Shown: positions 2,981 through 32,470 of the stretch, piece by piece | How positions within the stretch are numbered: the first letter of the stretch is position 1 | How the letters are laid out: every line of letters begins with the position of its first letter | Source of the DNA: Pseudomonadota bacterium | GTDB taxonomy: Bacteria > Pseudomonadota > Gammaproteobacteria > Burkholderiales > Rhodocyclaceae | Assembly: GCA_029780075.1 (NCBI GenBank) | Contig: JAKOZI010000129.1 | Location: 1-38,306 of the forward strand | DNA length: 38,306 nt | Reading direction: 5' to 3' | Position numbers and translations under genes: made by a program | Notes under the pieces: generated by a model | Told to the model about the DNA's origin: nothing | Seen by the model: the letters and a program-made list of their open reading frames with translations, nothing else | Database searches by the model: none

Positions 2981-3838
2981 TCACTGCGCAGACGCCAGTT
3001 CGGCGGTGGCGCTCATCGCCGTCGTGCCGTCCGGTCCCTGCGCCGCCAGCGACAACTCGTCGCCGTTGGCGGCGCACACGAGGCGAAACGGTGCCAGGTC
3101 GAAAAGCGGTGCCAGGCCACGGAAACTGAACCCCTGGACCGGCCGTCCGAACTGCTGACGAACCAGTTCCATCAACAGCACCGCAGTCAATGGGCCATGC
3201 ACCACCAGGCCCGGATAGCCCTCTTCATTGATCGCATAGGGCCGATCGTAATGAATCCGGTGCGCATTGAAGGTCAGGGCCGAGAAGCGGAACAGCAGCC
3301 TGGCGTCCGGGGTCACGATGCGCGTGCTGGCACCTGCCGGCAACAGCGGCCAATCGAGCACGCGTGGGCAAGGTACGGCCGGTCCGGGTTCCCGGTAAAC
3401 GATGTCCTGCTCCTCTTCGATACACAGCCGACCGTTCTGGTAAAAGCGGCAGAGCACCGAGACAAAGGCAAGCGCACCGGAACGTCCCGACTTCAACCGG
3501 ACATCGCGAATGACCGCCTCGCGGCGCGCCGCTTCGCCGATCAGCAACGGCGCATGGAAGCGCATGCGCGCGCCGGCAAACATCCGCCTCGGATAGGGAA
3601 TCGGCGGCATGAAGCCGCCGCGCTGCGGATGGCCGTCGTCACCCAGCAAGGCCTGCGGGGCTCTGGGGAGAAAATAGAACCAGTGCCACAAGGGCGGCAG
3701 GGCACTGCCGTTCCCGAAGCGCGTCCTTGTGTCGTCGAGCGTGGCCGCCGCCGCAAGGGCGGGAGCCACGCTCATGTCATCGTCCGTGATTTCCTGGCGG
3801 CCAATCCAGGTGGCGTAGTCTGCGGTGGCGTCGGTCAT
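2981..3838 (-). CDS. meh: Mesaconyl-C4-CoA hydratase (MaoC-like)
   Basis: Predicted to hydrate mesaconyl-C4-CoA to (S)-citramalyl-CoA in the 3-hydroxypropionate bicycle. The 285-residue product is a double hot-dog protein: an N-terminal FAS1-type dehydratase half, and a C-terminal half with the hydratase-2-like segment NAHRIHYDRPYA around residues 205-216. I chose the ATG at 3838 over an in-frame upstream start at 3889 because it gives the family length and leaves a GAAAGAA ribosome site 7 nt upstream. It is divergent from the CoA-transferase operon and its 3' end faces the phosphoethanolamine transferase. The specific name depends heavily on the neighbours; alone it would only be a MaoC family acyl-CoA hydratase. 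Confidence 0.82.
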   Translation of the reverse strand: MTDATADYATWIGRQEITDDDMSVAPALAAAATLDDTRTRFGNGSALPPLWHWFYFLPRAPQALLGDDGHPQRGGFMPPIPYPRRMFAGARMRFHAPLLIGEAARREAVIRDVRLKSGRSGALAFVSVLCRFYQNGRLCIEEEQDIVYREPGPAVPCPRVLDWPLLPAGASTRIVTPDARLLFRFSALTFNAHRIHYDRPYAINEEGYPGLVVHGPLTAVLLMELVRQQFGRPVQGFSFRGLAPLFDLAPFRLVCAANGDELSLAAQGPDGTTAMSATAELASAQ

Positions 3839-4033
3839 GAAAGGGTTCTTTCTGGAGGCTTTTCGGAATCGGTGCGGCAAGTACAGCATAGCAGGCCGGC
3901 AAACTCAAGCCTCAGATCTTTGCGCCGGGATGCCTGTTTTCACCCTATACTGCGCGGATTGCATCGCTACCGGGCCGGCCAGGAAATCAGCCTGGGGCGC
4001 ATTTTCCCGGAGATGCTGTCGAAAGGTGCGGTC
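3839..4033. promoter_or_regulatory. Divergent promoter region between meh and smtA
   Basis: This 195-bp spacer must carry the promoters for meh (leftward) and the CoA-transferase operon (rightward). A TATACT hexamer at 3946-3951 could be the -10 for the rightward operon, but no good -35 lies 16-18 bp upstream, which would fit an activator-dependent promoter. No clear operator palindrome was seen. Confidence 0.3.
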
Positions 4034-5377
4034 ATGAAAGAGGGAGCAACTTCGGCGACATCCGCCTCGTTGCGGTCTGGCGTCGAGGAGAAAGAGGACG
4101 AGACGCCGAAGGTTGATCGTACCTCGATCAACGATGAACGGCAGAACGACCCGGATCAGGAGCGCTCTGCCGAGAACGACAAGCTGCCGATGAGCGGCCT
4201 GCGGGTGATCGACGTCGGCACCTTCCTGGCTGGTCCCTACGCGGCGTCGATCCTCGGCGAGTTCGGTGCCGAGATTCTCAAGGTCGAGCATCCAATCGCC
4301 GGCGATCCCATGCGCCGCTTCGGCACTGCGTCGAAGCGCCACGATGCGACACTGGCCTGGCTCAGCGAAGGCCGCAACAGGAAATCGGTCACCCTCGACC
4401 TGCGCCAGCAGGAGGGTGTCACCCTGTTCCTGAAACTGGTCGCCAAATCTGACGTCCTGATCGAGAACTTCCGCCCGGGCACGATGGAAGAATGGGGACT
4501 CGGCTGGGACGAGTTGAGCAAGGCCAACCCCGGTCTGGTCATGCTCCGGGTCTCGGGCTACGGACAGACCGGGCCGTATCGCAGACGCTCGGGGTTCTCG
4601 CACATCGCACACGGTTTTGCCGGTCTGTCGTACCTCGCAGGTTTCCCCGGCGAAACCCCGGTGGTTCCGGGCACGGCGCCGATGGGTGACTATCTGTCCA
4701 GCCTTTACGGCGCCATTGGCATCCTGCTGGCGCTGCGCCACCGCGAAGCGACCGGCGAGGGGCAAATCATCGACATCGGGATCTACGAGGCGGTATTCCG
4801 CCAGATGGACGAGATCGCCGCGGCCTACGGCCTGTTCGGCAAGGTCCGTGAGCGCGAAGGCGCGGGCAGTTTCGTCGCCGTCCCGCATGGGCACTTCCGC
4901 TGCATCGACGACAAGTGGGTAGCCATCGCGTGTACTACGGACAAGATGTTCGAACGCTTCGCCGCGGTGATGGGCAAACCCGAACTCGCCGCCGCCGATC
5001 GCTACGGCGATCAGCGCAAGCGCCTGGCGGCGCGCGACGAGGTCAATCGCATCGTCGTTGAATGGGTCGGCTCGATGACGCGCAAGGAAGTCATGCAGCG
5101 CTGCATCGACGGCGAAGTACCGGCCGGCAAGCTCAACAGCATCGCCGACATTTTCGAGGATGAACACTTCCAGGCCCGTGGCAACCTGGCCCGGCTCAGG
5201 GAAGAAGGCCTCGGCGAAGTGGTCGTTCCTGGGGTCGTGCCCACCTTGTCCGAAACACCCGGCAGGATTTCCAACCTCGGCCCGCCGCTCGGCAACGCGA
5301 CCTATGAGGTGCTGCGCGAACTGCTGGGGATTTCCGCACAGGAAATCAAGCGGCTGCGGCAACACAAGATCATCTGA
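4034..5377 (+). CDS. smtA: Class III CoA-transferase, succinyl-CoA:malate CoA-transferase SmtA-like
   Basis: Predicted to transfer CoA from succinyl-CoA to L-malate (with SmtB), giving malyl-CoA for the lyase. The CaiB/BaiF fold is clear: [16 protein letters not shown] near residue 57, a [16 protein letters not shown] segment, [13 protein letters not shown], and [15 protein letters not shown]. The ATG at 4034 has AAGG 7 nt upstream and yields 447 residues, including about 50 charged, low-complexity residues before the fold that SmtB lacks; an ATG at 4190 would remove them. It is the first gene of a tight operon (22 bp to the next). Related class III enzymes use other acids, so the substrate is inferred from context and from resemblance to the Chloroflexus pair. 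Confidence 0.8.
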
Positions 5378-5399
5378 ACCGACCATCGCGAGAACCCTC

Positions 5400-6626
5400 A
5401 TGAGTACCCAACCGACCGCGAGCAGGCTGCCGCTCGAAGGCATTCGCGTCATCGACGCCGCGACGGTCATCGCCGCCCCCTACAGCGCGACCATTCTGAG
5501 CGAGTTCGGCGCCGAAGTCCTGAAGGTCGAAAACCCGATCGGCGGCGACCCCATGCGGCACTTCGGAACGCCGACCCAGCGCAAGGACACGCTGGCCTGG
5601 CTCAGCGAAGCCCGTAACAAGAAATCGGTGACGCTCGACCTGCACCTGCCCGAAGGCGTCGAACTGTTCAAGAAACTGGTCGAGAAATCGGACGTGCTGT
5701 GCGAAAACTTCCGGCCCGGCACCCTAGAAAAATGGGGCCTCGGGTGGAAGGTGCTGCATGCGATCAACCCACGGCTGATCATGCTGCGCGTCACCGGCTA
5801 TGGGCAGACCGGCCCGTACCGGGATCGGCCCGGTTTTGCCCGCGTCGCGCACGCGGTCGGCGGTATCGCCTTTCTCGCCGGCATGCCACGCGGAACACCG
5901 GTGACGCCGGGGTCGACCACCCTCGGTGATTACCTTACCGGTCTTTACGGCTGCATCGGCATCCTGATGGCCTTGCGCCACCGCGACCGCACCGGCCAGG
6001 GGCAGTATATCGACGCCGCGCTGTACGAGTCGGTCTTTCGCTGTACGGATGAACTGGCGCCGGCGTACGGGATGTTCGGCCGGGTGCGCGAGCGGCACGG
6101 GCCGACGCACAACGACTTCGCCTGCCCGCACGGGCATTTCCCGACCAAGGACGACGGCAAGTGGGTGGCCATTTCCTGCGTCACCGACAAGCTCTTCGAG
6201 CGCCTGGCAATCGCCATGGGACGCCCCGAACTGGCGGCGCCGCACGTCTATGGCGACCAGAAGACACGCTTGGAGAGCCGTCATGACGTCAACGAAATCG
6301 TCCGCGACTGGTGCGGGTCGCTGCACCGCGAGGAACTCCTCAATCGTTGCTTCGCCGCCGGCGCGCCGGCGGGTCCGCTGAACAGCATCGCCGACATTTT
6401 CGGCGACCGGCAGTTTCACGCCCGGCGCAACCTGGTAGCCATCGACGAGGCGGACATTGGCGAGACGGTGATCGTACCGTCGGTACTGCCGCGTCTGTCG
6501 GCGACACCGGGGCGCATCAAGCACCTCGGTCCGCGCCTGGGGCAGCATACCGATGAAGTACTCTCCGGTCTGCTGGGTCTGGAAGCGCACGAGATCGAAG
6601 GGCTGCGCAAGAAGCGCGTCATCTGA
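5400..6626 (+). CDS. smtB: Class III CoA-transferase, succinyl-CoA:malate CoA-transferase SmtB-like
   Basis: Paralogue of the preceding gene and presumed partner in a heteromeric succinyl-CoA:L-malate CoA-transferase. The 408-residue product has [16 protein letters not shown] near the N-terminus, [29 protein letters not shown] and [15 protein letters not shown], collinear with SmtA along its whole length, so the pair probably arose by tandem duplication. The start is ATG 5400, 22 bp after smtA, with only a weak ribosome site, suggesting translational coupling. The position that aligns by eye with the catalytic Asp of formyl-CoA transferase is Glu in both Smt proteins but Asp in the next gene. 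Alternative: a CoA-transferase for another dicarboxylate such as citramalate or itaconate. Confidence 0.8.
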
Positions 6627-6649
6627 ACGCGGCAGGAGGTATGGAAAGC

Positions 6650-7870
6650 ATGGACGGCATTCTCAAGGGGTTGCGAGTCGTCGAGGGATCGGCTTTCGTC
6701 GCAGCGCCACTGGGCGGGATGACCCTGGCCCAACTCGGAGCGGAGGTCATCCGTTTCGACCCGATCGGCGGCGGCCTCGACTATCGCCGCTGGCCACTGA
6801 CCCGCGACGGCCAGCACAGCCTGTTCTGGGCCGGCCTGAACAAGGGCAAGCGCTCGATCGCCGTCGACTTTCGCAAGCCGCGCGGGCAGGAGTTGCTGAC
6901 GCAGTTGATCTGCGCACCGGGCGAAAACGCCGGCCTGTTCAGCACCAACTTCCCGGCGAAGGGCTGGCTGAGCTATGAAAAGCTGCAAGCTCATCGCCAG
7001 GATCTGATCATGATCAACCTGACAGGTCGCCGCGACGGCGGCTCGGAGGTGGACTACACGGTCAACCCGCAAATCGGCCTGCCCTTCATGACCGGGCCGA
7101 CCCACTCTCCGGACGTGGTGAACCACGTCTTTCCAGCCTGGGACTTCATCAGCGGCCAGATGATTGCCGTTGGCATGCTGGCCGCCGAACGGCATCGGCG
7201 ACTCACCGGCGAAGGACAGCTGGTACGGCTGGCGCTCAAGGACGTGGCGCTGGCGATGCTCGGCAATTTCGGCATGCTCGCCGAGGTGATGGTCAATGAC
7301 ACCGACCGGCCACGCCAGGGCAACTACCTCTACGGCGCGTTTGGCCGCGACTTCGAAACCCTCGACGGCAAGCGCCTGATGGTCGTCGGTCTGACCGACA
7401 TGCAGTGGCAGTGTCTCACCAGGGCCACGGGTCTGCAGGAAGCGATCGCGGCGTTGGGCACACGGCTTGGCCTCGACCTGGGAGACGAAGGTAATCGCTT
7501 CCGAGCCCGTCAGCAGATTGCCGCGCTGCTGGAGCCGTGGTTCCACGCGCGCACGCTCGCCGAAGCGGCAGAGATCCTCAATGCCCACCGGGTCACCTGG
7601 GGCCCCTACCGCAGCGTGCGTGAAGCCCTGGCCTGCGACCCGGACTGCTCGGTCGACAATCCGCTGTTCACCCTGACCGAACAGCCGGGCATCGGGTCCT
7701 GCCTGATGCCGGCCACGCCGCTCGAATTCGGTCGTTCACCGCGCCTGCCGGCAATGCCGGCGCCCGCCCTCGGCGAGCATACCGACCAGATTCTGCTCGA
7801 CATCCTCGGCTTGAGCGCAGCCGAAGTCGGCCGCCTGCACGATCAGGGCGTCGTCGCCGGGCCCGCCTGA
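6650..7870 (+). CDS. mct: Mesaconyl-CoA C1-C4 CoA-transferase
   Basis: Predicted to move CoA within mesaconate from the C1 to the C4 carboxyl, converting mesaconyl-C1-CoA to mesaconyl-C4-CoA. It is a class III CoA-transferase of 406 residues, clearly divergent from the two upstream paralogues: [17 protein letters not shown] at the N-terminus, [32 protein letters not shown], and [15 protein letters not shown] with an Asp at the presumed catalytic position. I recall near-identical segments in the Chloroflexus enzyme. Two in-frame starts exist: ATG 6641 is only 1 nt from the AGGAGG sequence, while ATG 6650 has a 10-nt spacer and matches the recalled family N-terminus, so 6650 is used. Confidence 0.88.
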
Positions 7871-7882
7871 ATATCAAAGCCG

Positions 7883-7906
7883 CCGCAGAGAGCAAGCACT
7901 CTGCGG
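7883..7906 (+). promoter_or_regulatory. Hairpin between mct and mcl
   Basis: CCGCAGAG (7883-7890) and CTCTGCGG (7899-7906) form a perfect 8-bp stem with an 8-nt loop in the 67-bp gap between mct and mcl. No T-run follows, so it is probably an mRNA processing or stability element rather than a terminator. Confidence 0.5.
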
Positions 7907-7937
7907 TGTATCCACCCACCTCTGCAGGGAACAAACC

Positions 7938-8981
7938 ATGAAGCTACCCGTTCATTTCTACAAGCCACTCGCCATCGGTGCGCCTCAACCCCTGCGTGAA
8001 CTGCCGGTGCGGCCGGAACGAATGATCCACTTCTTTCCGCCACACATCGACAAGATCCGCTCCAAGGCGCCAGAAACCGCCAGGCAATGCGATGTGATGT
8101 GCGGCAACCTCGAGGATGCCATCCCGATCGAGGCCAAGGATGCGGCGCGCGCCGGTTTCATCGACCTGCTGGCCAGCCATGACTTCGGCGACACCGGCAT
8201 GTGGGTGCGAATCAACGCCCTGAACAGTCCCTGGGTACTCGACGACCTCAACGAGATCATCAGGCACGTCGGCAACAAGCTTGATGTGATCATGATTCCC
8301 AAGGTCGAAGGGCCCTGGGACATTCATTTCGTCGATCAGTATGTCGCCCTGCTCGAAGCGAAATACGCGATCAGGAAGCCGATTCTGCTGCATGCACTGC
8401 TCGAAACGGCGCAGGGAGTGACCAACGTCGAGGCGATCTGCGGCGCCAGCCCGCGCATGCATGGTCTGAGCCTGGGCCCGGCCGATCTGGCCGCGTCGCG
8501 GGGCATGAAGACGACCCGTGTCGGTGGTGGCCATCCGGGTTATGGCGTTCTCGCGGACCCCGAGGACGGCCAGGATCAACGCGCGTTCTTTCAGCAGGAC
8601 CTCTGGCATTACACCGTCGCGCGCATGGTCGATGCCGCGGTGACGCATGGCCTGCGCTCGTTTTATGGCCCGTTTGGCGACCTCAAGGACGAAGCGGCGT
8701 GCGAGGCGCAGTTCCGCAACGCCTTCCTGATGGGCTGCTCCGGCGCCTGGTCGCTGGCCCCGAACCAGATCGCCATTGCCAAGCGTGTTTTCAGCCCCGA
8801 CATCAAGGAAGTGCTGTTTGCCAAGCGTATCCTGGAAGCGATGCCCGATGGCAGCGGCGTGGCGACGATCGACGGCAAGATGCAGGACGATGCGACCTGG
8901 AAGCAGGCCCGCGTCATCGTCGATCTGGCCCGCCTGGTTGCCAGACGCGACCCGGAGCTGGCCGCAGCCTATGGCCTCTAG
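7938..8981 (+). CDS. mcl: Malyl-CoA/beta-methylmalyl-CoA/(S)-citramalyl-CoA lyase
   Basis: HpcH/HpaI-CitE superfamily lyase, 347 residues. In the 3-hydroxypropionate bicycle this enzyme splits malyl-CoA to acetyl-CoA plus glyoxylate, joins glyoxylate with propionyl-CoA to beta-methylmalyl-CoA, and splits citramalyl-CoA to pyruvate plus acetyl-CoA. Visible landmarks are [17 protein letters not shown] (residues 55-71), [18 protein letters not shown] with Glu156 and [20 protein letters not shown] with Asp183; these two acids match the usual Mg2+ ligands. Resemblance to the Chloroflexus enzyme, as I remember it, is very strong from N-terminus ([11 protein letters not shown]) to the C-terminal AYGL. 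An AGGGA ribosome site precedes ATG 7938. It is the catalytic hub of the cluster. Confidence 0.93.
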
Positions 8982-9014
8982 ACCCTTTACTCAAGACCAC
9001 ACGGAGAAACGCCA

Positions 9015-10073
9015 GTGAGCGAAAAGACCAGGCTGGGCAACTTCTTTGAAGACTTCTGGGTCGGGCAGAAAATCGCCCACGCAACACCGAGAACGATTAC
9101 CGAAGGGGACGTGGCGCTGTACACCGCGCTCACCGGTTCGCGCTTTGCCACCAATTCGGCCGACACCTTCGCGCACAGCCTGGGTTTCCCGCGGGCGCCG
9201 GTGGACGATCTGCTGGCGTTCAACATGGTCTTTGGCCGCACGGTGCCGGATATTTCACTCAACGCCATCGCCAACCTCGGTTACGCGGCCGGCCGCTTTG
9301 GTCATCCGATCTATCCAGGGGATACACTCACCGCCGATTCGACGGTGATCGGCCTCAAGGAAAACAGCGATGGCAAGACCGGCATCGTCTATGTTCGCTC
9401 GTGTGGCGTCAACCAGCGTGGGCAGATCGCACTCGACTATTGCCGCTGGGTGATGGTTCGCAAACGCAATCCCCAATCCCCGGCACCTGCCGCCAGTGTG
9501 CCCGATCTGCCCAGCGCCGTCGCTGCCGCCGACTTGATTGTGCCAACCGGGATCAGAATCGAACAGTACGACTGCGCGCTGGCCGGCAGTTCCGAGTTGT
9601 GGGACGACTACCGGGTCGGCGAGCGCATCGATCATGTGGACGGCATGACCGTCGAGGAAAGTGAACACATGATGGCCACCCGTCTGTACCAGAACACCGC
9701 GCGCGTGCATTTCAACCAGCAGGCCGAGCAGGCGGGGCGCTTCGGGCGTCGCATCATCTATGGCGGCTACATCATCAGTCTGGCGCGCGCGCTGTCCTTC
9801 AATGGCCTGGCCAACGCCTTCAGCATTGCGGCGATCAATGGTGGCCGACATGTCTCCCCGGCATTCGCCGGGGATACGGTATACGCCTGGTCGGAAGTGA
9901 TCGCGCAGTTGATCATTCCTGGGCGTCACGATCTCGGAGCCCTGCGGCTACGCACCGTAGCCACCAAGGACCACCCCTGTGCCGACTTCCCCTACAAGAG
10001 CCCCGACGGCCGTTACGACGCGAGCGTGCTGCTCGATTTCGACTATACGGTGCTGATCCCGCGCCGGGCGTAG
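9015..10073 (+). CDS. mch: Mesaconyl-C1-CoA hydratase (beta-methylmalyl-CoA dehydratase)
   Basis: Predicted to dehydrate beta-methylmalyl-CoA reversibly to mesaconyl-C1-CoA, the step after the Mcl condensation. The 352-residue protein is a MaoC-type double hot-dog hydratase: N-terminal domain with GNFFEDFWVGQ, TPRTITEGDVALYTALTGSR and PDISLNAIANLGY; second domain beginning at SELWDDYRVGERIDHVDGMT with RLYQNTARVHFN and RRIIYGGYIISLARAL. The start is a GTG at 9015 with GGAG 8 nt upstream, 33 bp after mcl. It is the last gene of the smtA-smtB-mct-mcl-mch operon. The name is well supported by sequence and position; (R)-specific enoyl-CoA hydratases are shorter and lack this N-terminal domain. Confidence 0.9.
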   Translation: MSEKTRLGNFFEDFWVGQKIAHATPRTITEGDVALYTALTGSRFATNSADTFAHSLGFPRAPVDDLLAFNMVFGRTVPDISLNAIANLGYAAGRFGHPIYPGDTLTADSTVIGLKENSDGKTGIVYVRSCGVNQRGQIALDYCRWVMVRKRNPQSPAPAASVPDLPSAVAAADLIVPTGIRIEQYDCALAGSSELWDDYRVGERIDHVDGMTVEESEHMMATRLYQNTARVHFNQQAEQAGRFGRRIIYGGYIISLARALSFNGLANAFSIAAINGGRHVSPAFAGDTVYAWSEVIAQLIIPGRHDLGALRLRTVATKDHPCADFPYKSPDGRYDASVLLDFDYTVLIPRRA

Positions 10074-10357: not shown

Positions 10358-10954
10358 ATGTTCCAAGTCCGAATACACGGTCGCGGCGGCCAAGGCGTGG
10401 TTACGGCTGCCGAGATGTTGTCGATTGCTGCGTTTGAGGAAGGCCGCCACGCTCAGGCCTTCCCGAGTTTCGGTTCCGAGCGTACTGGAGCCCCGGTCGT
10501 CGCGTTCTGCCGTATCGCCGACAAGGAAATCCGGCTGCGCGAACCGATCATGGAACCCGATGCACTGATCATCCAGGATCCAACGCTGCTGTACCAGGTC
10601 GATGTCTTCTCTGGCCTGAAGAAAGGCGGTTACATCCTGATCAACACGACGCGCAGTTTTGACGAGTTGGGGCTGGGCGATTTCGTCCGTGACTGGCCAA
10701 AGGAAAGGTTGTGCACGGTCCCCGCCACCGACCTCAGTCGCCAGCACGTCGGTCGTCCTATGCCGAACGTGCCCTTGCTGGCCGGCTTTGCCGCCGCGTC
10801 CGGCGTCATTCAGCTGGAGTCGGTGATCAACGCCATCCGGACCAAGTTCCCGGAGAAAATCGCCAACAGCAATATTGCCGCAGCCACCGCGGCTTACCAG
10901 TTCGTCCTCGACGAGATCGCCAACGCGCGTCAAGGGGAGGTAGCGCATGCTTAA
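10358..10954 (+). CDS. porC: 2-oxoacid (probably pyruvate):acceptor oxidoreductase, gamma subunit
   Basis: Gamma subunit of a multi-subunit 2-oxoacid:ferredoxin/acceptor oxidoreductase, which interconverts pyruvate plus CoA with acetyl-CoA plus CO2. The 198 residues begin with the family signature VRIHGRGGQGVVTAAEML and continue with FGSERTGAPVVAFCRI and PDALIIQDPTLL, typical of the catalytic gamma domain. A strong ribosome site (GAGGAGG) lies 4 nt before ATG 10358, and the gene overlaps the alpha gene by 8 bp. Phenylglyoxylate dehydrogenase of Azoarcus-type bacteria has a similar subunit set, so substrate is not fixed by this subunit; the downstream pyruvate phosphate dikinase argues for pyruvate. 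Confidence 0.85.
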   Translation: MFQVRIHGRGGQGVVTAAEMLSIAAFEEGRHAQAFPSFGSERTGAPVVAFCRIADKEIRLREPIMEPDALIIQDPTLLYQVDVFSGLKKGGYILINTTRSFDELGLGDFVRDWPKERLCTVPATDLSRQHVGRPMPNVPLLAGFAAASGVIQLESVINAIRTKFPEKIANSNIAAATAAYQFVLDEIANARQGEVAHA

Positions 10955-12200
10955 GCAGACTGAAGGTTCACACGCCGTTGCCGAGGCGGTCGCTCTTTGC
11001 CGGCCCGAGGTCATCTGTGCCTACCCCATCTCGCCGCAAACACATATCGTCGAAGGACTCGGCGAGATGGTCAAGGCTGGCGAAGTCGCAAACTGTGAGT
11101 TCATCAACGTCGAATCCGAATTTGCCGCGATGAGCGTCGCCATCGGCTCGTCGGCAACCGGTGCCCGGACGTACACCGCTACCGCTTCACAGGGACTGCT
11201 GTTCATGGTTGAAGCGGTGTTCAATGCTTCCGGTCTTGGCCTGCCGATCGTCATGACTGTCGCCAATCGCGCCATCGGCGCACCGATCAACATCTGGAAC
11301 GACCACTCGGATTCGCTGTCGCAACGCGACTGCGGCTGGATACAGCTGTTCGCCGAAACCAACCAGGAAGCCCTCGATCTGCACATCCAGGCCTTCAAGC
11401 TGGCCGAAGAAGTGAGCCTGCCGGTCATGGTGTGCATGGACGGCTTCATTCTGACGCACGCGTACGAACGGGTAGACGTCCCCACCCAGGAGCAGGTCGA
11501 CGCCTTCCTGCCCCCATACGAACCTCGCCAGGTGCTGGACCCGACACAACCGGTATCGATCGGCGCGATGGTCGGTCCGGAGGCCTTCTCGGAGGTTCGC
11601 TACCTCGCGCACGCCAAGCAGATGCAGGCGCTCGAGCGTATCCCGCAACTGGCTGAGCAATTCAAGGAAGTGTTCGGTCGCGACTCCGGCGGCCTGACAC
11701 ATTCGTACCTGACAGACGATGCCGAAACCATCGTCGTGGCCATGGGCTCGGTTCTGGGAACCATCAAGGACACCGTCGACGAGATGCGTGCTGCCGGCGA
11801 CAGGATCGGTGTACTGGGAATTACCTCCTACCGGCCTTTCCCGATCGACAACGTCCGCGCCGCCCTGCAGAACGCGCAGCGCGTGGTGGTCCTCGAAAAG
11901 AGTCTTGCCGTGGGCATCGGCGGCATCCTGTCCACCGACGTGCGCATGGCCATGTCCGGTCTGCAACTGCACGGGCATACCGTCGTGGCCGGGCTCGGGG
12001 GGCGAGCGATTACCAGAAAATCGCTGCGCGCACTCTTTGCCCAGGCCGCGCGCGGCGAACTGGGTCACCTCACCTTCCTCGATCTCGACTGGAACGTGGT
12101 CAACAAGCAGCTCGAACGCGAGCGCACCACGCGCCGCTCGGGCCCGGCAGCCGAAAGCATGCTGCGCGACGTGGGCGTCATTGCCGCCCGTATTGGCTGA
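10947..12200 (+). CDS. porA: 2-oxoacid (probably pyruvate):acceptor oxidoreductase, alpha subunit
   Basis: Alpha subunit carrying the pyrimidine-binding thiamine diphosphate domain, 417 residues. It shows EGSHAVAEAVALCRPEVICAYPISPQTHIVE at the start, the conserved VESEFAAMSVAIGSSATGARTYTATASQGL block near residues 51-80, and AIGAPINIWNDHSDSLSQRDCGW near 110. The C-terminal half has the transketolase-C-like GVLGITSYRPFP region. All this is typical of the split, archaeal-like PFOR rather than the single-chain bacterial enzyme. The ATG at 10947 lies inside the end of porC, after a GGGAGG sequence, implying translational coupling. Phenylglyoxylate or another 2-oxoacid remains possible as substrate. 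Confidence 0.86.
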   Translation: MLKQTEGSHAVAEAVALCRPEVICAYPISPQTHIVEGLGEMVKAGEVANCEFINVESEFAAMSVAIGSSATGARTYTATASQGLLFMVEAVFNASGLGLPIVMTVANRAIGAPINIWNDHSDSLSQRDCGWIQLFAETNQEALDLHIQAFKLAEEVSLPVMVCMDGFILTHAYERVDVPTQEQVDAFLPPYEPRQVLDPTQPVSIGAMVGPEAFSEVRYLAHAKQMQALERIPQLAEQFKEVFGRDSGGLTHSYLTDDAETIVVAMGSVLGTIKDTVDEMRAAGDRIGVLGITSYRPFPIDNVRAALQNAQRVVVLEKSLAVGIGGILSTDVRMAMSGLQLHGHTVVAGLGGRAITRKSLRALFAQAARGELGHLTFLDLDWNVVNKQLERERTTRRSGPAAESMLRDVGVIAARIG

Positions 12201-12211
12201 GGACATCGACG

Positions 12212-13225
12212 ATGAGCTTCCAACCCCTGCATTTTTACCAGACCGGCACCTTCACCATCGGCAACCGCCTGCTCGCCGAAGAAGACCTCAGTGTGCAGTC
12301 CGACATCGAGCGCACCAATTCACTCAACTCCGGACACCGCGCGTGCCAGGGCTGCGGCGAAGCGCTTGGCGCGCGTTTCGCCATCGACGCGGCGATGAAG
12401 GCCGCGCGTGGCCGCCTGATCGCGGCCAATGCCACCGGTTGCCTTGAGGTATTCTCGACGCCCTACCCCGAGACCTCGTGGCAAATCCCCTGGATCCACT
12501 CGCTGTTCGGTAATACCGCTGCAGTCGCCACCGGCATCGCCGCGGCGATCAAGGTGAAAAGACAAAAGGGCGAGATGGGTGACGTCCGCGTCGTGGCCCA
12601 GGGCGGCGATGGTGGCACTACCGACATCGGCTTCGGCTGCCTGTCGGGAATGTTCGAACGCAACGACGACGTGCTGTACATCTGCTACGACAACGGCGGC
12701 TACATGAACACCGGCGTGCAACGGAGTTCGGCCACCCCACCGGCAGCCCGCACGGCGACTACCATGCCGGTCGGCCCGGAGCCTGGCAACGCTTTTGGTC
12801 AGGGCAAGTTCGTTCCGGCGATCGCCATGGCGCACGAGATTCCTTACGTCGCGACAGCCACCGTCGCCGGGCTGCACGACCTCGAGTACAAGGTCACCAA
12901 GGCCATGGGCATGCGCGGCGCCCGTTACATCCATATCCTGGTGCCCTGCCCCCTGGGCTGGGGTGCGGCGTCGCAGGACACCATCCGGCTGGCGCGCCTG
13001 GCCAAGGAAACCGGCATCTTTCCGGTCTTCGAGGCCGAACACGGCGAAGTCACCGGCGTCCTGAAGATTCGCCGCCAGCAGCCGGTTGAGGAGTATCTGC
13101 GACTGCAGAAACGCTATGCCCACCTGTTTGGCAAGACACCGGCAGTGGAAACGATCGCCCGCCTGCAAGCAGCGGCGGACAAGAACATTCGCAAGTACGG
13201 ACTGCTCGACCAGGAGGCGAACTGA
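12212..13225 (+). CDS. porB: 2-oxoacid (probably pyruvate):acceptor oxidoreductase, beta subunit
   Basis: Beta subunit with the diphosphate-binding thiamine domain and one [4Fe-4S] cluster, 337 residues. Four cluster-type cysteines are visible: two in ACQGCGEALGARF (about residues 45-57), one in NATGCLEVF, one in LVPCPLGWG. The thiamine-Mg motif is GGDGGTTDIGFGCLSG followed by YDNGGYMNTGVQRSSATP, in the spacing of split PFORs. It lies 11 bp after porA, and its TGA shares a base with the ATG of the next gene (TGATG), so all four subunits are likely made from one mRNA in fixed ratio. Confidence 0.88.
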   Translation: MSFQPLHFYQTGTFTIGNRLLAEEDLSVQSDIERTNSLNSGHRACQGCGEALGARFAIDAAMKAARGRLIAANATGCLEVFSTPYPETSWQIPWIHSLFGNTAAVATGIAAAIKVKRQKGEMGDVRVVAQGGDGGTTDIGFGCLSGMFERNDDVLYICYDNGGYMNTGVQRSSATPPAARTATTMPVGPEPGNAFGQGKFVPAIAMAHEIPYVATATVAGLHDLEYKVTKAMGMRGARYIHILVPCPLGWGAASQDTIRLARLAKETGIFPVFEAEHGEVTGVLKIRRQQPVEEYLRLQKRYAHLFGKTPAVETIARLQAAADKNIRKYGLLDQEAN

Positions 13226-14847
13226 TGGAAAAACCCTTTGCTATTACCCTTGACCCTGGCTCGTCACTGGCCAACCGCACGGGCTCCTGGCGCACCTCAC
13301 GGCCGGTCTATCTTGACCGCCTGCCACCCTGCAACAAGCAATGCCCTGCCGGCGAGGATATCCAGGGCTGGCTCTTCCACGCCGAATCCGGTGACTACGA
13401 AAACGCCTGGCGGCATCTGACGAAAGACAACCCGTTCCCGGCGATCATGGGACGGGTCTGTTACCACACTTGCGAGAGCGCCTGCAACCGCGGCCAACTT
13501 GATGCGCCGGTCGGCATCAACTCGGTCGAGCGCTTTCTCGGCGACGAAGCCCTCAAGCGTGGGTGGAAGCTGACGGCACCTGCCGTCGAAACCGGGAAAC
13601 ACGTTTTGGTCGTCGGCGCAGGCCCCTCGGGCATGTCGGCTGCCTACCACCTGCGTCGACTCGGTCACCGCGTCACGGTGCATGAGGCCGGCCCGCTGTT
13701 AGGCGGCATGATGCGCTTTGGCATTCCCAAGTACCGACTGCCGCGTGACGTACTCGAAGCCGAAATGCAGCGCGTGGTGGACCTCGGTGTCACGGTCAAG
13801 CTGAACAGCAAGGTCGCGAACATCCTGGACACCATGCAGGCCGGCGCCTTCGACGCTGCCTTCCTGGCGGTGGGGGCGCATATCGGCAAGCGAGCGATGA
13901 TCCCGGCGGGCGACGCCGCAAAGATCATCGACGCCATTTCCTTGCTGCGCAGCATGGAAGGTGAAGACAAGCCCATGCTCGGGCGTCGGGTGGTCGTTTA
14001 CGGCGGCGGCAACACGGCCATTGACGTAGCACGCACCGCCAAACGCATGGGCGCCGAACCGCTGATCGTCTATCGCCGCACTCGCGAAAAAATGCCGGCA
14101 CACGACTTCGAGGTCGAGGAAGCGCTACAGGAAGGGATCATGGTCAAGTGGCTATCGACCATCAAGCAGGCCGATGAGTCCTCACTGACCATCGAAAAGA
14201 TGGCCCTCGACAGCAAGGGCTTTCCACAGCCGACGGGCGAATTCGAAACCATCGAAGCCGACTCGCTGGTTCTGGCGCTCGGGCAGGACGTCGATCTGGG
14301 CCTGCTCGACGGCGTTCCGGGACTGCAGGTGAGCGATGGCGTGGTGCAGGTCGGTGCCAACATGATGACTGGCCATCCGGGTATCTTCGCGGGTGGCGAC
14401 ATGGTCCCGGCCGAACGCAATGTCACGGTCGGCATCGGTCACGGCAAAGCCGCAGCCAAGCACATCGATGCCTGGCTGCGCGGCGAGCAGTATGTCCCAC
14501 CACCAAAACACGAAGTCGCGGCGTTCGCCAACCTCAACACCTGGTACTACACCGATGCGCCGAAAACGGTACGTCCCATGCTGGACATCATACGTCGCCA
14601 ATCGACCTTCGACGAGGTCCAGGGCGGCCTCGACGAGGGGACAGCGCTCTTTGAGGCCCGGCGCTGCCTTTCCTGCGGCAACTGCTTCGAATGCGACAAC
14701 TGCTACGGTGTCTGCCCCGACAACGCAGTGATCAAGCTTGGCGCCGGCAAACGCTTCGAGTTCAACTACGATTACTGCAAGGGCTGTGGGATGTGCGTTG
14801 CCGAATGCCCGTGTGGTGCGATCAAGATGGAGGCCGAAGAAATCTGA
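13225..14847 (+). CDS. FAD/NAD(P)H oxidoreductase subunit with ferredoxin domain (GltD-like)
   Basis: Electron-transfer subunit that would link the 2-oxoacid oxidoreductase to NAD(P)H. Layout of the 540 residues: an N-terminal GltD-type Fe-S domain with cysteines at 36, 40, 79, 83 and 87; a FAD-binding GAGPSGMSAAYHL segment near 132; a second nucleotide-binding GGGNTAIDVARTAKR near 258; and a C-terminal two-cluster ferredoxin domain with CLSCGNCFECDNCYGVCP and CKGCGMCVAECPCGAI. The ferredoxin domain replaces the separate delta subunit of ordinary four-subunit PORs, and no separate ferredoxin gene is present. Fused or paired flavoproteins of this kind are known in phenylglyoxylate dehydrogenase (PadH) and in NADPH-linked PORs. 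It is not glutamate synthase: no large-subunit gene is nearby. Confidence 0.83.
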   Translation: MEKPFAITLDPGSSLANRTGSWRTSRPVYLDRLPPCNKQCPAGEDIQGWLFHAESGDYENAWRHLTKDNPFPAIMGRVCYHTCESACNRGQLDAPVGINSVERFLGDEALKRGWKLTAPAVETGKHVLVVGAGPSGMSAAYHLRRLGHRVTVHEAGPLLGGMMRFGIPKYRLPRDVLEAEMQRVVDLGVTVKLNSKVANILDTMQAGAFDAAFLAVGAHIGKRAMIPAGDAAKIIDAISLLRSMEGEDKPMLGRRVVVYGGGNTAIDVARTAKRMGAEPLIVYRRTREKMPAHDFEVEEALQEGIMVKWLSTIKQADESSLTIEKMALDSKGFPQPTGEFETIEADSLVLALGQDVDLGLLDGVPGLQVSDGVVQVGANMMTGHPGIFAGGDMVPAERNVTVGIGHGKAAAKHIDAWLRGEQYVPPPKHEVAAFANLNTWYYTDAPKTVRPMLDIIRRQSTFDEVQGGLDEGTALFEARRCLSCGNCFECDNCYGVCPDNAVIKLGAGKRFEFNYDYCKGCGMCVAECPCGAIKMEAEEI

Positions 14848-14947
14848 CCGCAGTACCGCACCAGCCTGGCCGCTCCTGACCCGTTTGACGGACAGGAGCG
14901 TAATGAACACCGTGGCCCGATGCAGATCCCGGGTCACCGACTCTGGG

Positions 14948-14990
14948 GGCACTTCGAGCGTGCCGTTCGAAGTGTCCTTTCCTTGTTTCC
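14948..14990 (+). terminator. Probable intrinsic terminator after the por operon
   Basis: GGCACTTCGA (14948-14957) pairs with TCGAAGTGTC (14967-14976), a 10-bp stem with one G-T pair and a 9-nt loop, followed by a T-rich CTTTCCTTGTTT run. It sits 100 bp after the por operon and just before ppdK. Confidence 0.6.
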
Positions 14991-15007
14991 TCACCCGCGA
15001 GGTATGT

Positions 15008-17737
15008 ATGCCAACTGAATCAAAGAACGTCTACGTATTTGGTGCCGCCCGAACTGACGGCGATGCCAAGATGAAGAATTTGCTGGGAGGCAAGGGTGCC
15101 AACCTTGCCGAGATGTGCCGCCTGGGAATCGCGGTGCCATCTGGCTTTACGATCAGCACCGAAGCCTGCACCGTTTACAGCGAGCAGGGCAAGGACGCCG
15201 TGTTCAAATTGATCGAAGCCGACGTCCGGCAGGGCGTCGCATTTGTTGAACAGGAAATGGGGAAGAAGTTCGGCGACGCGTCTGATCCGCTGTTGCTGTC
15301 GGTGCGTTCCGGCTCGCGCGCGTCGATGCCGGGAATGATGGACACCATTCTGAATCTCGGGCTCAATGACGAAGCGGTTCTCGGCCTGGCTCGCAAGGCC
15401 AAGAACGAACGCTTTGCCTGGGACTCGTACCGCCGTTTTGTGCAGATGTACGGCGATGTGGTCATGGGTCTCAAACCGGTGTCCAAGGAAGACCACGATC
15501 CCTTCGAAGTGGTCATTGACATGGTCAAGGAGAAGAAGGGGGTTCAGCTCGATACCGACCTCGACACCGAAGACCTGAAGGAACTGGTACTGCGTTTCAA
15601 GGGCCTGATTCGTGCCCGTGTCGGCCGTGAGTTCCCGACCGATCCCTGGGAACAGCTCTGGGGTGCGGTGATGGCGGTTTTTCAGAGCTGGAACAACGAC
15701 CGGGCCAAGGTTTACCGTGAGTTGAACGACATTCCGGATTCGTGGGGCACGGCGGTAAACGTGCAGGCCATGGTCTTCGGTAATCTGGGCGACAACAGCG
15801 GCACCGGTGTCGCCTTCACCCGTGACGCCAGTACTGGCGAAGACCTGTTCAACGGCGAGTTCCTGATCAACGCCCAGGGTGAAGATGTCGTGGCCGGCAT
15901 CCGTACGCCACAGCAGGTCACCCTCGAGGGTTCGCGGCGCTGGGCGCAACTGGCGCTGGTCAACGAAGAGGAGCGCCGCAGCAAGTTCCCTTCCCTCGAA
16001 GAACTGATGCCCGATATCTATCAGCAACTCCTGCAGGCCGAAACGAAGCTGGAGAAGCACTACGCGGACATGCAGGACGTCGAGTTCACCATCCAGGAAG
16101 GTCGTCTGTGGATGCTGCAGACCCGCAACGGCAAACGCACCGGCTCGGCAATGGTGCGCATTGCGATGGAAATGCTGCGCCAGGGCATCATTGATGAAAA
16201 GGAAGCCCTGCGGCGCGTCAACCCCGAGCGCTTGAACGAACTCCTGCACCCGGTCTTCGATCCGGCGGCAATCAAGAAGGCTCGCTCGATTGCGCATGGC
16301 CTGCCGGCGTCTCCCGGCGCGGCGACCGGACAGATCGTCTTCTTCGCCGACGAAGCCGAGGAGTGGGTCAGAAAAGGCAAGACCGTGATCCTCGTGCGGC
16401 AGGAAACCTCGCCTGAAGACCTGCGCGGCATGAGCGTCGCCAAGGGAATCCTCACCGCTCGCGGTGGCATGACCTCGCACGCGGCCGTGGTCGCGCGCGG
16501 CATGGGCAAATGCTGTGTCTCCGGTGCCGGCGCGGTGCATGTCGACTACCACGCGCGCACGATGTCGATTGGCAGCGAAACCTATAATGAAGGCGATTGG
16601 CTGTCACTCGACGGATCGACCGGGGAAGTCTACCTGGGCCAGGTACCGACCAAGGAAGCTGAACTCACCGGTGACTTCGGCACGCTGATGGAACTCGCCG
16701 ACCGTTACAAACGGCTTGGTGTGCGGGCCAACGCCGATACCCCCGAGGACGCCAAGGCCGCACGCAACTTCGGCGCCAAGGGGATCGGCCTGTGTCGTAC
16801 CGAACACATGTTCTTCGAAGGTGACCGCATCAAGGCGGTTCGCGAAATGATTCTCGCCGACGACGAAGCCGGGCGCCGGCGCGCGCTCGCCAAGCTGCTG
16901 CCCATGCAGCGGGGCGACTTCGAAGGTCTGTTCCGCGAGATGAGTGGACTGGCGGTGACCATCCGCCTGCTCGACCCGCCGCTGCACGAGTTCGTTCCTC
17001 ACGACGAAGAAAACCAGCGCATCATGGCTCACGAAATGAACGTGCCTCTGGGGGTGATCAAGATGCGGGTCGATGATCTGCACGAGTTCAACCCGATGAT
17101 GGGCCACCGCGGCTGCCGCCTCGGCATTACCTACCCGGAAATCACCGAAATGCAGACCCGCGCGATACTTGAGGCGGGCCTCAACATGAAGGCCAAAGGT
17201 TTCGACGTCAAGGCCGAGATCATGATTCCGCTGGTCGGGACCGTCCGTGAATTCAACGCCCAGGCCAAGATCATCCGCCAGACGGCCAAGGCGGTCTTCG
17301 CCGAGCGTGGCGAGAAACTGGACTTCTTGCTCGGCACCATGATCGAGACACCGCGCGCTGCGCTGATCGCCGACAGCATTGGTCAACAGGCTGAGTTCTT
17401 CTCGTTTGGCACCAACGACCTGACCCAGATGACCATGGGTTTCTCGCGCGACGATGCCGGCAAGTTCCTGCCCAGCTACCTCAAGGATGGCATGTACGAG
17501 CAAGATCCGTTCCAGTCGATCGACCAGAAGGGTGTTGGCCTGCTGGTCAAGATGGCCGTTGAAAAAGGTCGCGCTGCACGTCCTGGGATCAAGCTCGGCG
17601 TCTGTGGTGAGCACGGAGGTGACCCGGCTTCGGTCGAGTTCTTCCATCGCACCGGTCTCGACTACGTGAGTTGCTCGCCATTCCGGGTGCCGCTGGCCCG
17701 CCTGGCGGCGGCCCAGGCGGCGATCGATAACGACTGA
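15008..17737 (+). CDS. ppdK: Pyruvate, phosphate dikinase
   Basis: Converts pyruvate, ATP and phosphate to PEP, AMP and diphosphate (reversible), feeding pyruvate to gluconeogenesis. The 909-residue protein has the N-terminal ATP-grasp domain (MKNLLGGKGANLAEM; SVRSGSRASMPGMMDTILNLG), the phosphohistidine domain with GGMTSHAAVVARGMGK (catalytic His about residue 491), and the C-terminal PEP-binding barrel with the GTNDLTQ segment and the catalytic Cys in LGVCGEHGG (about residue 866). Start ATG 15008 follows GAGG by 5 nt and gives the family N-terminus. An in-frame ATG at 14903, also with an AGGAG, would add 35 unrelated residues and place the upstream hairpin inside the gene. Its position after a pyruvate oxidoreductase fits pyruvate-to-PEP conversion. 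Confidence 0.96.
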   Translation: MPTESKNVYVFGAARTDGDAKMKNLLGGKGANLAEMCRLGIAVPSGFTISTEACTVYSEQGKDAVFKLIEADVRQGVAFVEQEMGKKFGDASDPLLLSVRSGSRASMPGMMDTILNLGLNDEAVLGLARKAKNERFAWDSYRRFVQMYGDVVMGLKPVSKEDHDPFEVVIDMVKEKKGVQLDTDLDTEDLKELVLRFKGLIRARVGREFPTDPWEQLWGAVMAVFQSWNNDRAKVYRELNDIPDSWGTAVNVQAMVFGNLGDNSGTGVAFTRDASTGEDLFNGEFLINAQGEDVVAGIRTPQQVTLEGSRRWAQLALVNEEERRSKFPSLEELMPDIYQQLLQAETKLEKHYADMQDVEFTIQEGRLWMLQTRNGKRTGSAMVRIAMEMLRQGIIDEKEALRRVNPERLNELLHPVFDPAAIKKARSIAHGLPASPGAATGQIVFFADEAEEWVRKGKTVILVRQETSPEDLRGMSVAKGILTARGGMTSHAAVVARGMGKCCVSGAGAVHVDYHARTMSIGSETYNEGDWLSLDGSTGEVYLGQVPTKEAELTGDFGTLMELADRYKRLGVRANADTPEDAKAARNFGAKGIGLCRTEHMFFEGDRIKAVREMILADDEAGRRRALAKLLPMQRGDFEGLFREMSGLAVTIRLLDPPLHEFVPHDEENQRIMAHEMNVPLGVIKMRVDDLHEFNPMMGHRGCRLGITYPEITEMQTRAILEAGLNMKAKGFDVKAEIMIPLVGTVREFNAQAKIIRQTAKAVFAERGEKLDFLLGTMIETPRAALIADSIGQQAEFFSFGTNDLTQMTMGFSRDDAGKFLPSYLKDGMYEQDPFQSIDQKGVGLLVKMAVEKGRAARPGIKLGVCGEHGGDPASVEFFHRTGLDYVSCSPFRVPLARLAAAQAAIDND

Positions 17738-29134: not shown

Positions 29135-29689
29135 TTACCTCCTGTCTGATTTCCCCTGCGCTGCAGCCACTGCCGTTGCCGACGTCGTCAGCCGAAAGAC
29201 CGGCTGCTTCTCAGTCACCCAAGCGCCCATCAGGCGCCACTCCTGCCGATCGTCCTCTAGCGTCAGGTGCCACCGACCACGGAAAGGCAAGACGCCCCCC
29301 GCATAGACACCTCCACCCTCGGAACGTAGCGTCACCTTTTGATCGAAGCCTGCGCGGGTGGGGTGAGCAATGCCCAGGTTCAGAGTTTCCGGCAACCTGA
29401 ACCCCTCCTTTGCACGCAGCAGCGCCCGTAAGCGATCACCCTCGCCACCCAGGACAAGCTCCGCCTCGATACCCAGTTCGGCGGCCCGCTGATCGCGCAC
29501 CGTCCGTTGGTTTACCGTCAGGCCCTGCTTGTAGTAGTCGTCTTCCACGAGGCCGTCATTGCTGACCACCGCCAGGTAAGCGGTAACCAGCCCGGCGATG
29601 ATGACCAGTGCCGGCCCGAGCATCAGCAGCCACGGCCAGGGCTCCCGGTACCACGCCCGAACGCTGGCATTCCTTCGCGGATCAGTCAT
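29135..29689 (-). CDS. fixH: FixH family protein (cbb3 oxidase assembly)
   Basis: Membrane protein of the ccoGHIS/fixGHIS assembly set, thought to help deliver copper to the cbb3 oxidase. The 184-residue product has a basic N-terminus, one helix (WLLMLGPALVIIAGLVTAYLAVV), the family hallmark DGLVEDDYYKQGLTVNQ just after it, and a periplasmic beta-rich domain ending in WRLMGAW. Its ATG overlaps the ccoG stop by 4 bp (ATGA). Its last codons supply the ribosome site of the next small gene. Confidence 0.9.
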   Translation of the reverse strand: MTDPRRNASVRAWYREPWPWLLMLGPALVIIAGLVTAYLAVVSNDGLVEDDYYKQGLTVNQRTVRDQRAAELGIEAELVLGGEGDRLRALLRAKEGFRLPETLNLGIAHPTRAGFDQKVTLRSEGGGVYAGGVLPFRGRWHLTLEDDRQEWRLMGAWVTEKQPVFRLTTSATAVAAAQGKSDRR

Positions 29690-31101: not shown

Positions 31102-31140
31102 GATTTCAGCTCCGATCCATTTCAGAATTACACCAAACTC

Positions 31141-31183
31141 TAATATTACATTGCAGCGCCAGTGTGATCTTGATTTGAATCAG
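31141..31183 (-). promoter_or_regulatory. FNR/ANR-type promoter of ccoG
   Basis: TTGATTTGAATCAG at 31170-31183 matches the FNR consensus TTGATNNNNATCAA in all but one half-site base. On the minus strand a TAATAT hexamer (31148-31143) lies 31 bp centre-to-centre downstream, close to the spacing of a class II FNR promoter, and ccoG starts 75 bp from the box centre. Predicts induction of ccoG at low oxygen. The remainder of this 265-bp spacer (31184-31317) shows nothing else. Confidence 0.75.
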
Positions 31184-31317
31184 CCAGGGCCGGATTGAAG
31201 TGCAAATCCCCGCCGGGGGAAACGCGTTCAGGTAGGGGTAGGGAGGCTTTTCCCTCAGGCACAAGCCAGCCAATTGTGAGACCTGATCGGTACTTCGCTA
31301 GCCCGGCCTACTGGGGC

Positions 31318-31348
31318 AAAAAAACGGAGCGACCAAAGCCGCTCCGTT
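31318..31348 (-). terminator. Intrinsic terminator of ccoNOQP
   Basis: On the minus strand AACGGAGCG (31348-31340) pairs with CGCTCCGTT (31331-31323), a perfect 9-bp stem with an 8-nt loop, and the right arm runs into seven T (31324-31318). It begins about 20 bp after the ccoP stop and separates the structural genes from ccoG-fixH. Confidence 0.9.
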
Positions 31349-32466: not shown

Positions 32467-32470
32467 GCGC

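Follow-up and report, generated by a model that had tools for sequence, protein, structure and literature searches.

A mesaconyl-CoA gene block in Candidatus Accumulibacter: conserved core, optional smtAB genes and linkage to ethylmalonyl-CoA pathway genes

What use does a bacterium make of one half of the 3-hydroxypropionate bicycle (3HPB) when the early enzymes of that cycle are not found? The question is raised by a 38,306-nt stretch of DNA, an entire contig (C255) that we refer to as the window, which carries six contiguous genes with open reading frames at positions 2981-10073: meh on the minus strand, and smtA, smtB, mct, mcl and mch, all on the plus strand. The organism, a wastewater bacterium, belongs to Candidatus Accumulibacter, and a partial 3HPB has already been published for this genus as well as for Ca. 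Kentron, Ca. Thiosymbion and Ca. Competibacter (PMC6593406); the finding in the window is thus itself known, and the remark in an earlier note on this DNA (the original prediction) that Accumulibacter carries a related cluster was correct. We conclude that the block is probably a mesaconyl-coenzyme A (CoA) module that, in the window species, yields pyruvate and acetyl-CoA from propionyl-CoA and glyoxylate. The window block alone adds little to what was known; across the genus the module is dissected by natural loss, with smtAB lost repeatedly and the core mostly kept.

The six genes and their products

The genes of the block, with the main evidence for each, are as follows.

2981..3838 (open reading frame opens at 3889), minus strand: meh, mesaconyl-C4-CoA hydratase-like; start set by orthologues in the genus; synteny, PF13452
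4190..5377 (conserved part; possible starts at 4013 and 4034), plus strand: smtA, succinyl-CoA:malate CoA-transferase subunit A-like
5400..6626, plus strand: smtB, CoA-transferase subunit B-like; PF02515, 385 bits; in the SmtB clade
6641..7870, plus strand: mct, predicted mesaconyl-C1/C4-CoA transferase; TIGR04253, 838 bits (cut-off 725)
7938..8981, plus strand: mcl, malyl-/methylmalyl-/citramalyl-CoA lyase of the Chloroflexus type; matches to 6kin and 4l7z; synteny
9015..10073, plus strand: mch, mesaconyl-C1-CoA hydratase; 4e3e, its best solved relative, 567 bits; PF19315, 64 bits (cut-off 26.5)

From smtA to mch the genes are separated by only 14-67 bp. Compared with three Chloroflexota loci (L060, L062 and L064; L denotes loci and G genomes, G000 being that of the window), identities are 66-71% for Meh, 81-82% for SmtA, 75-79% for SmtB, 76-78% for Mct, 80-82% for Mcl and 69-71% for Mch. 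These identities, the coordinates and the family models bear out the prediction that all six genes are present and adjoin one another.

The assignment of Mct is based on its family model and on its active site. Its solved relatives, 7xkg from Roseiflexus and 8apq from Chloroflexus, each score 756 bits, at 78 and 79% identity. In the alignment to 8apq (offset 3), the nucleophile Asp165 is kept as D168, the gating residue Leu43, which is of the intramolecular type, as L46, and Arg47, Arg75 and Phe101 as R50, R78 and F104, while Arg104 is replaced by Lys107 and Ile74 by Phe77 (catalytic and gating residues as named in PMC9813914). With a score above the family cut-off and its catalytic residues in place, the protein fits the mesaconyl-C1/C4-CoA transferase of the 3HPB module. 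Mcl scores 677 and 664 bits against 6kin and 4l7z, the latter of which we take to be the Chloroflexus enzyme, versus 188 bits against the Rhodobacter enzyme 4l9y. According to PMC3832036, from which the designation of 4L9Y is taken, the Chloroflexus lyase is efficient at citramalyl-CoA cleavage and the lyase reaction is reversible.

Two of the identities were reached in other ways. Meh is the least secure of the block by family models: it is placed in PF13452 at 28 bits (cut-off 22), has no match among the NCBIfam models, and finds its best solved relatives, at 220 bits, in 8huc and 8khg, of which 8khg is named an itaconyl-CoA hydratase. SmtA was identified by tblastn, by searching genomes and from a tree, because the family scans of the smtA slot covered an antisense open reading frame, which matched no families. 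In the joint SmtA/SmtB tree, the SmtA of the window falls in the SmtA clade and its SmtB in the SmtB clade, each with the Chloroflexota proteins.

A conserved core, optional smtAB and the por-ppdK continuation

We examined the conservation of the block in 28 Accumulibacter genomes, scoring smtA as present above 800 bits, meh at 69% identity or more, mch at 76% or more and mct by its family cut-off. The four genes of the core are nearly constant: mct exceeds the cut-off in 26 of the 28 genomes and is a split gene in one more (G010), meh is found in 25, mch in 26 and mcl in all 27 loci examined. By these measures smtA is present in just 14; the remaining 14 comprise 13 genomes with mct and G008. 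The latter (93% complete) is the sole member of the 28 in which none of mct, smtA, meh and mch was found. Gaps occur in two further genomes: in G002 (87% complete) mch is missing and meh is represented by a 47% relative only, and G011 (88% complete) has no meh. In G010, the split mct consists of two overlapping frames (contig C12, 52634-53843), and a further copy of mch lies, along with a piece of mct, on a different contig (C11, 389212-391585).

On a tree of GlcB DNA, a single gene with several weak branches, the distribution of smtAB needs at least seven changes. Decay of smtA is visible in two of the 13 genomes that have mct but no smtA: G018 keeps smtA codons 1-93, and in G025 fragments of smtA and of smtB lie upstream of mct (the check in G011 covered 145 bp). 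Since smtAB changes repeatedly while the core persists, the conserved unit is mainly meh-mct-mcl-mch, which would lead from methylmalyl-CoA to pyruvate and acetyl-CoA, and smtAB is dispensable for the half-cycle. The original view of the six genes as one module was incomplete: smtA is missing from half of the genomes, and a continuation at 10358-17737 was not listed with the module.

We considered two explanations for smtAB and rejected both. If SmtAB substituted for malate synthase, we expected no malate synthase in genomes carrying smtAB, but malate synthase is found in all 28. If smtAB and the ethylmalonyl-CoA (EMC) genes described below were alternatives, they should not coincide, but smtA occurs in 11 of the 23 genomes with the EMC block and in 3 of the 5 without a match to the mutase Ecm.

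The continuation consists of genes for a predicted pyruvate oxidoreductase and a pyruvate phosphate dikinase (PPDK).

10358..10954, plus strand: porC, 2-oxoacid (pyruvate) oxidoreductase, gamma subunit; TIGR02175, 200 bits (cut-off 81)
10947..12200, plus strand: porA, alpha subunit; PorA_Arch, 462 bits, under its cut-off of 550; PF01855, PF17147
12212..13225, plus strand: porB, beta subunit; PorB NF008819, 326 bits, under its cut-off of 405
13225..14847, plus strand: NAD(P)-binding flavin oxidoreductase with a fused PorD-like ferredoxin domain; NF009410, 770 bits (cut-off 516); the PorD domain spans residues 485-539 (TIGR02179 PorD_KorD, 67 bits, cut-off 60)
14738..17737 (limits of the open reading frame; match from about 15023), plus strand: ppdK, pyruvate phosphate dikinase; TIGR01828, 1333 bits (cut-off 843)

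In 24 of 27 genomes porC adjoins mch (the exceptions are G002, G004 and G019), and the run is complete to ppdK in 21; it stops at contig ends in G003 and G011, and G010 has no ppdK match at 60% identity. porC, porA and porB have no match in the 71 non-Accumulibacter loci among the best 80 Mct loci. One of the loci compared, L098, encodes a protein related to the flavoprotein (62%), at a distance of some 10.8 kb from the Mct-like gene of that locus.

Ethylmalonyl-CoA genes and the role of the block

In most of the genus the block is linked to genes that could feed it by a second route. Gene identities of this EMC block were checked in G015 alone, where the order is a DUF6986 aldolase-like gene, an acyl-CoA dehydrogenase, a MaoC/MC_hydratase gene, a 672-aa B12 mutase, MeaB, the crotonyl-CoA carboxylase/reductase Ccr, a quinone oxidoreductase, a 160-aa MaoC gene that we take to be PhaJ-like, and meh, which sits 1 bp past the 160-aa gene. 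The dehydrogenase scores 623 bits against the (2S)-methylsuccinyl-CoA dehydrogenase 8ciw, versus 323 for the next best, and Ccr, which carries CBS domains, scores 564 bits (cut-off 379) and matches 4gi2. The 672-aa mutase is named Ecm (ethylmalonyl-CoA mutase) from its context, its solved relatives being methylmalonyl-CoA mutases, and is thus a putative assignment. The mesaconyl-C1-CoA that Mch would form in the block is also the product of the EMC dehydrogenase, Mcd (PMC12290011).

Calling an EMC block from at least four of the eight genes by tblastn, we found one in 23 of the 28 genomes, a distribution that needs five changes on the GlcB tree; ccr itself is seen in 18 of the 23, the fetched stretches ending earlier in the others. 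No 672-aa mutase was found in the window genome, G006, G008, G018 or G024; in the first of these, a search for Ecm yielded no more than a methylmalonyl-CoA-mutase frame of 743 aa and another frame of 1095 aa, and ccr was not searched there genome-wide. In 19 of the 23 genomes, core or smt genes (mct, meh or smtAB) are found on the same contig as the EMC block, in five arrangements. Most often meh adjoins duf6986 on one strand (G001, G005, G009, G010, G014, G016, G019, G022 and G026), or the block runs toward meh (G007 and G012). In six genomes the block ends in phaJ and is followed on that strand by meh, which touches phaJ or lies within 30 bp of it in G015, G023 and G025 and is 364-839 bp away in G003, G013 and G027. 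In G017 only mct adjoins the block, and meh-mcl-mch-por-ppdK occupies a different contig. In G021 the block comes after ppdK-tgt and separates tgt from secD, two genes that adjoin each other in the window. The block is divided between two contigs in G003 and G027, and in G002, G004, G011 and G020 it lies on a separate contig, possibly owing to assembly. The closeness of the genes in five different arrangements speaks for a functional relation, although genomes of a single genus are not independent and the linkage carries no significance test. To this extent the original reading of the block was incomplete, as the linked EMC genes would form a second source of mesaconyl-C1-CoA in most members of the genus.

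Further observations concern the EMC block itself. At L222 (1228-13100) and in its orthologues in 23 genomes, the conserved block includes a gene for a DUF6986 aldolase-like protein. Its 395-aa MaoC/MC_hydratase protein is about 31% identical to Mch. A search of three loci for a gene between duf6986 and mct or meh gave overlapping open reading frames only, none of them a consistent candidate.

An independent hint of an EMC link comes from Defluviicoccus, where a lone mct-meh pair (L075, 8244-12126; Meh 62%) lies directly behind a polyphosphate:AMP phosphotransferase gene. Other Defluviicoccus strains carry EMC genes, complete in five genomes, with isocitrate lyase in one bin only (PMC9041414).

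We consider it quite possible, though still tentative, that the reductive citramalyl/ethylmalonyl-CoA pathway operates naturally in the majority of Accumulibacter species, making pyruvate and acetyl-CoA from CO2 and the acetyl-CoA or 3-hydroxybutyryl-CoA of storage polymers. Mesaconyl-C1-CoA would leave this route by Mct, Meh and Mcl, and pyruvate would pass through PPDK to phosphoenolpyruvate (PEP) and glycogen, with no need of glyoxylate. The classical EMC pathway shares mesaconyl-C1-CoA, Mch and the lyase chemistry, but exits at glyoxylate and propionyl-CoA, whereas Mct and Meh of Accumulibacter offer a second exit at pyruvate and acetyl-CoA. The pathway was described in 2021 as an artificial, computed design that converts acetyl-CoA, HCO3-, 2 NADPH and ubiquinone (UQ) to pyruvate at -39 +/- 9 kJ/mol (PMC10521678). 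The EMC block together with mct, meh and mcl would encode this same route; the design is computed and, in the available text of that paper, has no organism reported. Among the open full-text papers listed on Accumulibacter and on EMC, we found no report of this route in nature or of linkage between EMC genes and Mct or Meh, and the available text of PMC6593406 predicts no EMC pathway for Kentron and mentions neither por/ppdK nor an EMC linkage.

If such a route operates, Accumulibacter would possess a natural carboxylation route from acetyl-CoA to pyruvate otherwise met only as a computed design; the genus is thereby a candidate in which a pathway drawn up on paper could be tested in nature. 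The linkage to EMC genes and PPDK would also specify a way in which phosphate-accumulating bacteria may convert polyhydroxybutyrate (PHB) and polyhydroxyvalerate (PHV) back into glycogen. EMC transcription is reported to rise when phosphate is low, particularly in type I Accumulibacter, in a study that calls the coexistence of the EMC pathway and the glyoxylate cycle unclear and in whose available text the word 'mesaconyl' does not occur (PMC12604563); the linkage offers a reason for the coexistence of isocitrate lyase and the EMC pathway.

For the window species, whose lineage would lack the EMC half, we keep the reading from glyoxylate and propionyl-CoA because the EMC route is not supported there. 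By analogy with the Chloroflexus enzymes, Mcl would join glyoxylate, supplied by isocitrate lyase, to propionyl-CoA, which may come from PHV (a presumed source), propionate or methylmalonyl-CoA. The resulting beta-methylmalyl-CoA would be dehydrated by Mch to mesaconyl-C1-CoA, Mct would shift the CoA to C4, Meh would convert mesaconyl-C4-CoA to (S)-citramalyl-CoA, and Mcl, acting again, would cleave the latter to pyruvate and acetyl-CoA. The products of the neighbouring genes, PPDK and a pyruvate oxidoreductase, could then pass pyruvate to PEP and glycogen or to acetyl-CoA. SmtAB would be an optional side arm interconverting malate and malyl-CoA, and in most other members of the genus the core may also take mesaconyl-C1-CoA from the EMC block.

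The carbon metabolism of the genus is compatible with this scheme. Isocitrate lyase exceeds its cut-off in all 28 genomes, as does malate synthase, and methylmalonyl-CoA mutase is full length in 26 (partial in G011, two frames in G019). PrpB of the methylcitrate cycle exceeds its cut-off in none of the 28 (best 168 of 354 bits; 4 of 14 controls exceed it), so that we saw no sign of a canonical methylcitrate exit for propionyl-CoA. The block does not appear to serve autotrophy, because neither malonyl-CoA reductase (Mcr) nor propionyl-CoA synthase (Pcs) was found in the 20 of 28 Accumulibacter genomes that were searched for them, that of the window included. For Mcr, the matches were confined to dehydrogenase frames some 300 aa long, found in five genomes at 58-66 bits; the query sequence was validated in a Chloroploca control, which gave a 1261-aa frame at 55% identity and 611 bits. 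For Pcs, a protein of about 1800 aa, the longest ACAS_N frame is 780 aa, and the Chloroploca control gave an 1827-aa frame with a Pcs domain at 34 bits. The early bicycle enzymes, originally noted as not in the window, were likewise not found in its genome and 19 others, and the gene identities, together with this search and its working positive control, uphold the interpretation as the glyoxylate-assimilating half of the 3HPB rather than autotrophy.

Several points weigh against our reading. The window genome (4.5 Mb, completeness 99.7%) is in 346 contigs with an estimated contamination of 6.1%. Meh is assigned by synteny and 66-71% identity, with one solved relative an itaconyl-CoA hydratase and nothing from NCBIfam. 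G008 has none of the cluster genes sought, G002 and G011 have gaps, and the direction of the block could be reversed.

We weighed three other accounts. It is possible, but in our view rather doubtful, that the main job of the core is to close an EMC branch without glyoxylate, glyoxylate co-assimilation being a side use. In such a branch, (R)-3-hydroxybutyryl-CoA would become crotonyl-CoA, ethylmalonyl-CoA (by Ccr and CO2), methylsuccinyl-CoA (by Ecm) and mesaconyl-C1-CoA (by Mcd), from which Mct, Meh and Mcl would give pyruvate and acetyl-CoA. The frequency of the EMC block and of its contig-sharing with mct, meh or smtAB, the position of meh after phaJ in six genomes and of mct alone beside the block in G017, the Mcd and Ccr scores in G015, and the lone pair in Defluviicoccus, a genus with EMC genes (PMC9041414), all favour this account. 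However, the complete cluster, smtAB included, persists in three genomes with no match to Ecm (that of the window, G006 and G024); mch would be unneeded and yet is kept in 26 of 28 genomes; and isocitrate lyase and malate synthase are present throughout. Moreover, four genomes have the block on a separate contig, one of which (G004) has no maoC match, and the genomes of a single genus are not independent.

Anaerobic operation in the opposite sense is unlikely. Pyruvate and acetyl-CoA would then pass through citramalyl-CoA, mesaconyl-CoA and methylmalyl-CoA to propionyl-CoA and glyoxylate, providing for PHV without reductant. The reactions of Mch, Mct and Meh are reversible. So is that of the lyase (PMC3832036), the por and ppdK genes handle pyruvate, and a citramalate cycle of that direction has been described in Rhodospirillum rubrum (PMC8307300). 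We regard a catabolic cluster for external itaconate, mesaconate or citramalate as very unlikely. It would account for the itaconyl-CoA hydratase among the solved relatives of Meh, and citramalyl-CoA is common to both pathways, but Mcl reaches only 125 of 375 bits for RipC and Mch 111.5 of 340 bits for RipB, SmtA and SmtB group with those of Chloroflexota, and no dicarboxylate transporter family was found in the 30 window open reading frames, a subset of the total, that were scanned with Pfam.

Related clusters and the question of transfer

The mesaconyl-CoA module that we favour for the window is shared, in its genes and order, with distant bacteria. An Mct scan of genome contigs, from which we used the best 80 loci, includes nine Accumulibacter loci with Mct 82-88% identical to that of the window. 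Among the same 80, the full block in the same order with divergent meh occurs in Roseiflexus, Chloroploca and a Chloroflexi metagenome-assembled genome (MAG), in Gemmatimonadota (L069, L079 and L083; L078 has no smtAB match) and in Burkholderiales (L070, L074, L076, L077 and L080). Thus the block is present in a proteobacterium, as predicted, but is not unique there, and a similar glyoxylate-salvage arrangement was already known in Burkholderiales and Gemmatimonadota MAGs (PMC9802188). Those MAGs are credited with the potential for the whole bi-cycle, unlike the Accumulibacter block. Closer to the window, Mct exceeds its cut-off in 26 of 61 genomes, namely 26 of the 28 Accumulibacter genomes and none of 33 outside the genus (9 from other genera of the family and 24 from the order). 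Of 398 genomes drawn from the phylum, only that of the window has an Mct above the cut-off; the Mct of Defluviicoccus also passes (745 bits), so this draw is narrower than the whole collection.

The Chloroflexus-like order named originally is seen in L060, L062 and L064, where meh again lies on the opposite strand, but the two genes placed there between mct and smtB are not found in L062 and L064 (gaps of about 60 and 10 bp) and would hardly fit in L060 (about 0.5 kb); the Chloroflexota loci compared did not include C. aurantiacus. The clusters of Roseiflexus, Chloroploca and Chloroflexus resemble that of Accumulibacter in the six genes, their order, divergent meh, 66-82% identity and the catalytic and most gating residues of Mct. 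The Accumulibacter cluster differs in that mcr and pcs were not found, por-ppdK lies downstream and smtAB is missing from half of the genus.

We compared trees of the six genes, each with up to 23 chosen loci: the window, six of the nine Accumulibacter loci (L052, L054 and L057 were left out), five from Chloroflexota, L063, L071, L081 and others. Matches covering less than 60% of the query were dropped, as were L083 (long branch) and the Competibacteraceae and alphaproteobacterial rows; L073 and L075 were added for meh only. The Accumulibacter rows form one clade, starred, in all six trees, with L071, a beta-proteobacterial MAG, inside it where the gene is present. In five of the six, a single branch sets Burkholderiales, Gemmatimonadota and L081 apart, across the split from Accumulibacter; this grouping is starred for mct and smtB and has bootstrap values of 77-90%, unstarred, for mcl, meh and smtA. 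The mch tree does not recover the grouping, but it is not rejected (p-AU 0.253). The pattern fits genes moving as a block, the six trees being without significant conflict, and in this respect the proposed block transfer stands. A Chloroflexota donor was not accepted, as the gene trees do not fix a root. Chloroflexota lie near the base of the Mct tree with weak support and an outgroup that is not one clade, and no such position is seen in the SmtB half of the joint tree. Chloroflexi probably gained these genes by transfer too (PMC6593406).

The survey of Mct-like loci also brought up clusters of other composition. Seven Competibacteraceae loci (L085, L092, L094, L096, L105, L110 and L112) have smtAB 78-84% identical to that of the window together with only distant relatives of Meh (40-46%), the lyase (29-32%) and Mct (59-63%), and represent a different, hybrid cluster. 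Ten gammaproteobacterial loci (L086, L089, L093, L097, L102, L116, L123, L124, L125 and L130) have an Mct-like gene (58-64%) near a methylsuccinyl-CoA-dehydrogenase-like gene whose product is 55-60% identical to that of Accumulibacter, which hints at a route from methylsuccinyl-CoA to citramalyl-CoA. In Actinomycetota and Pseudomonadota MAGs (L090, L091, L099, L100, L104, L108, L111, L113, L115, L117-L121 and L126), a distant Mch-like hydratase gene (26-29%) lies just before an Mct-like gene (60-65%). Elsewhere in the window, positions 29135-34527 hold ordinary accessory and structural genes of a cbb3 oxidase, encoding FixH, FixG, FixP, FixO and COX1.

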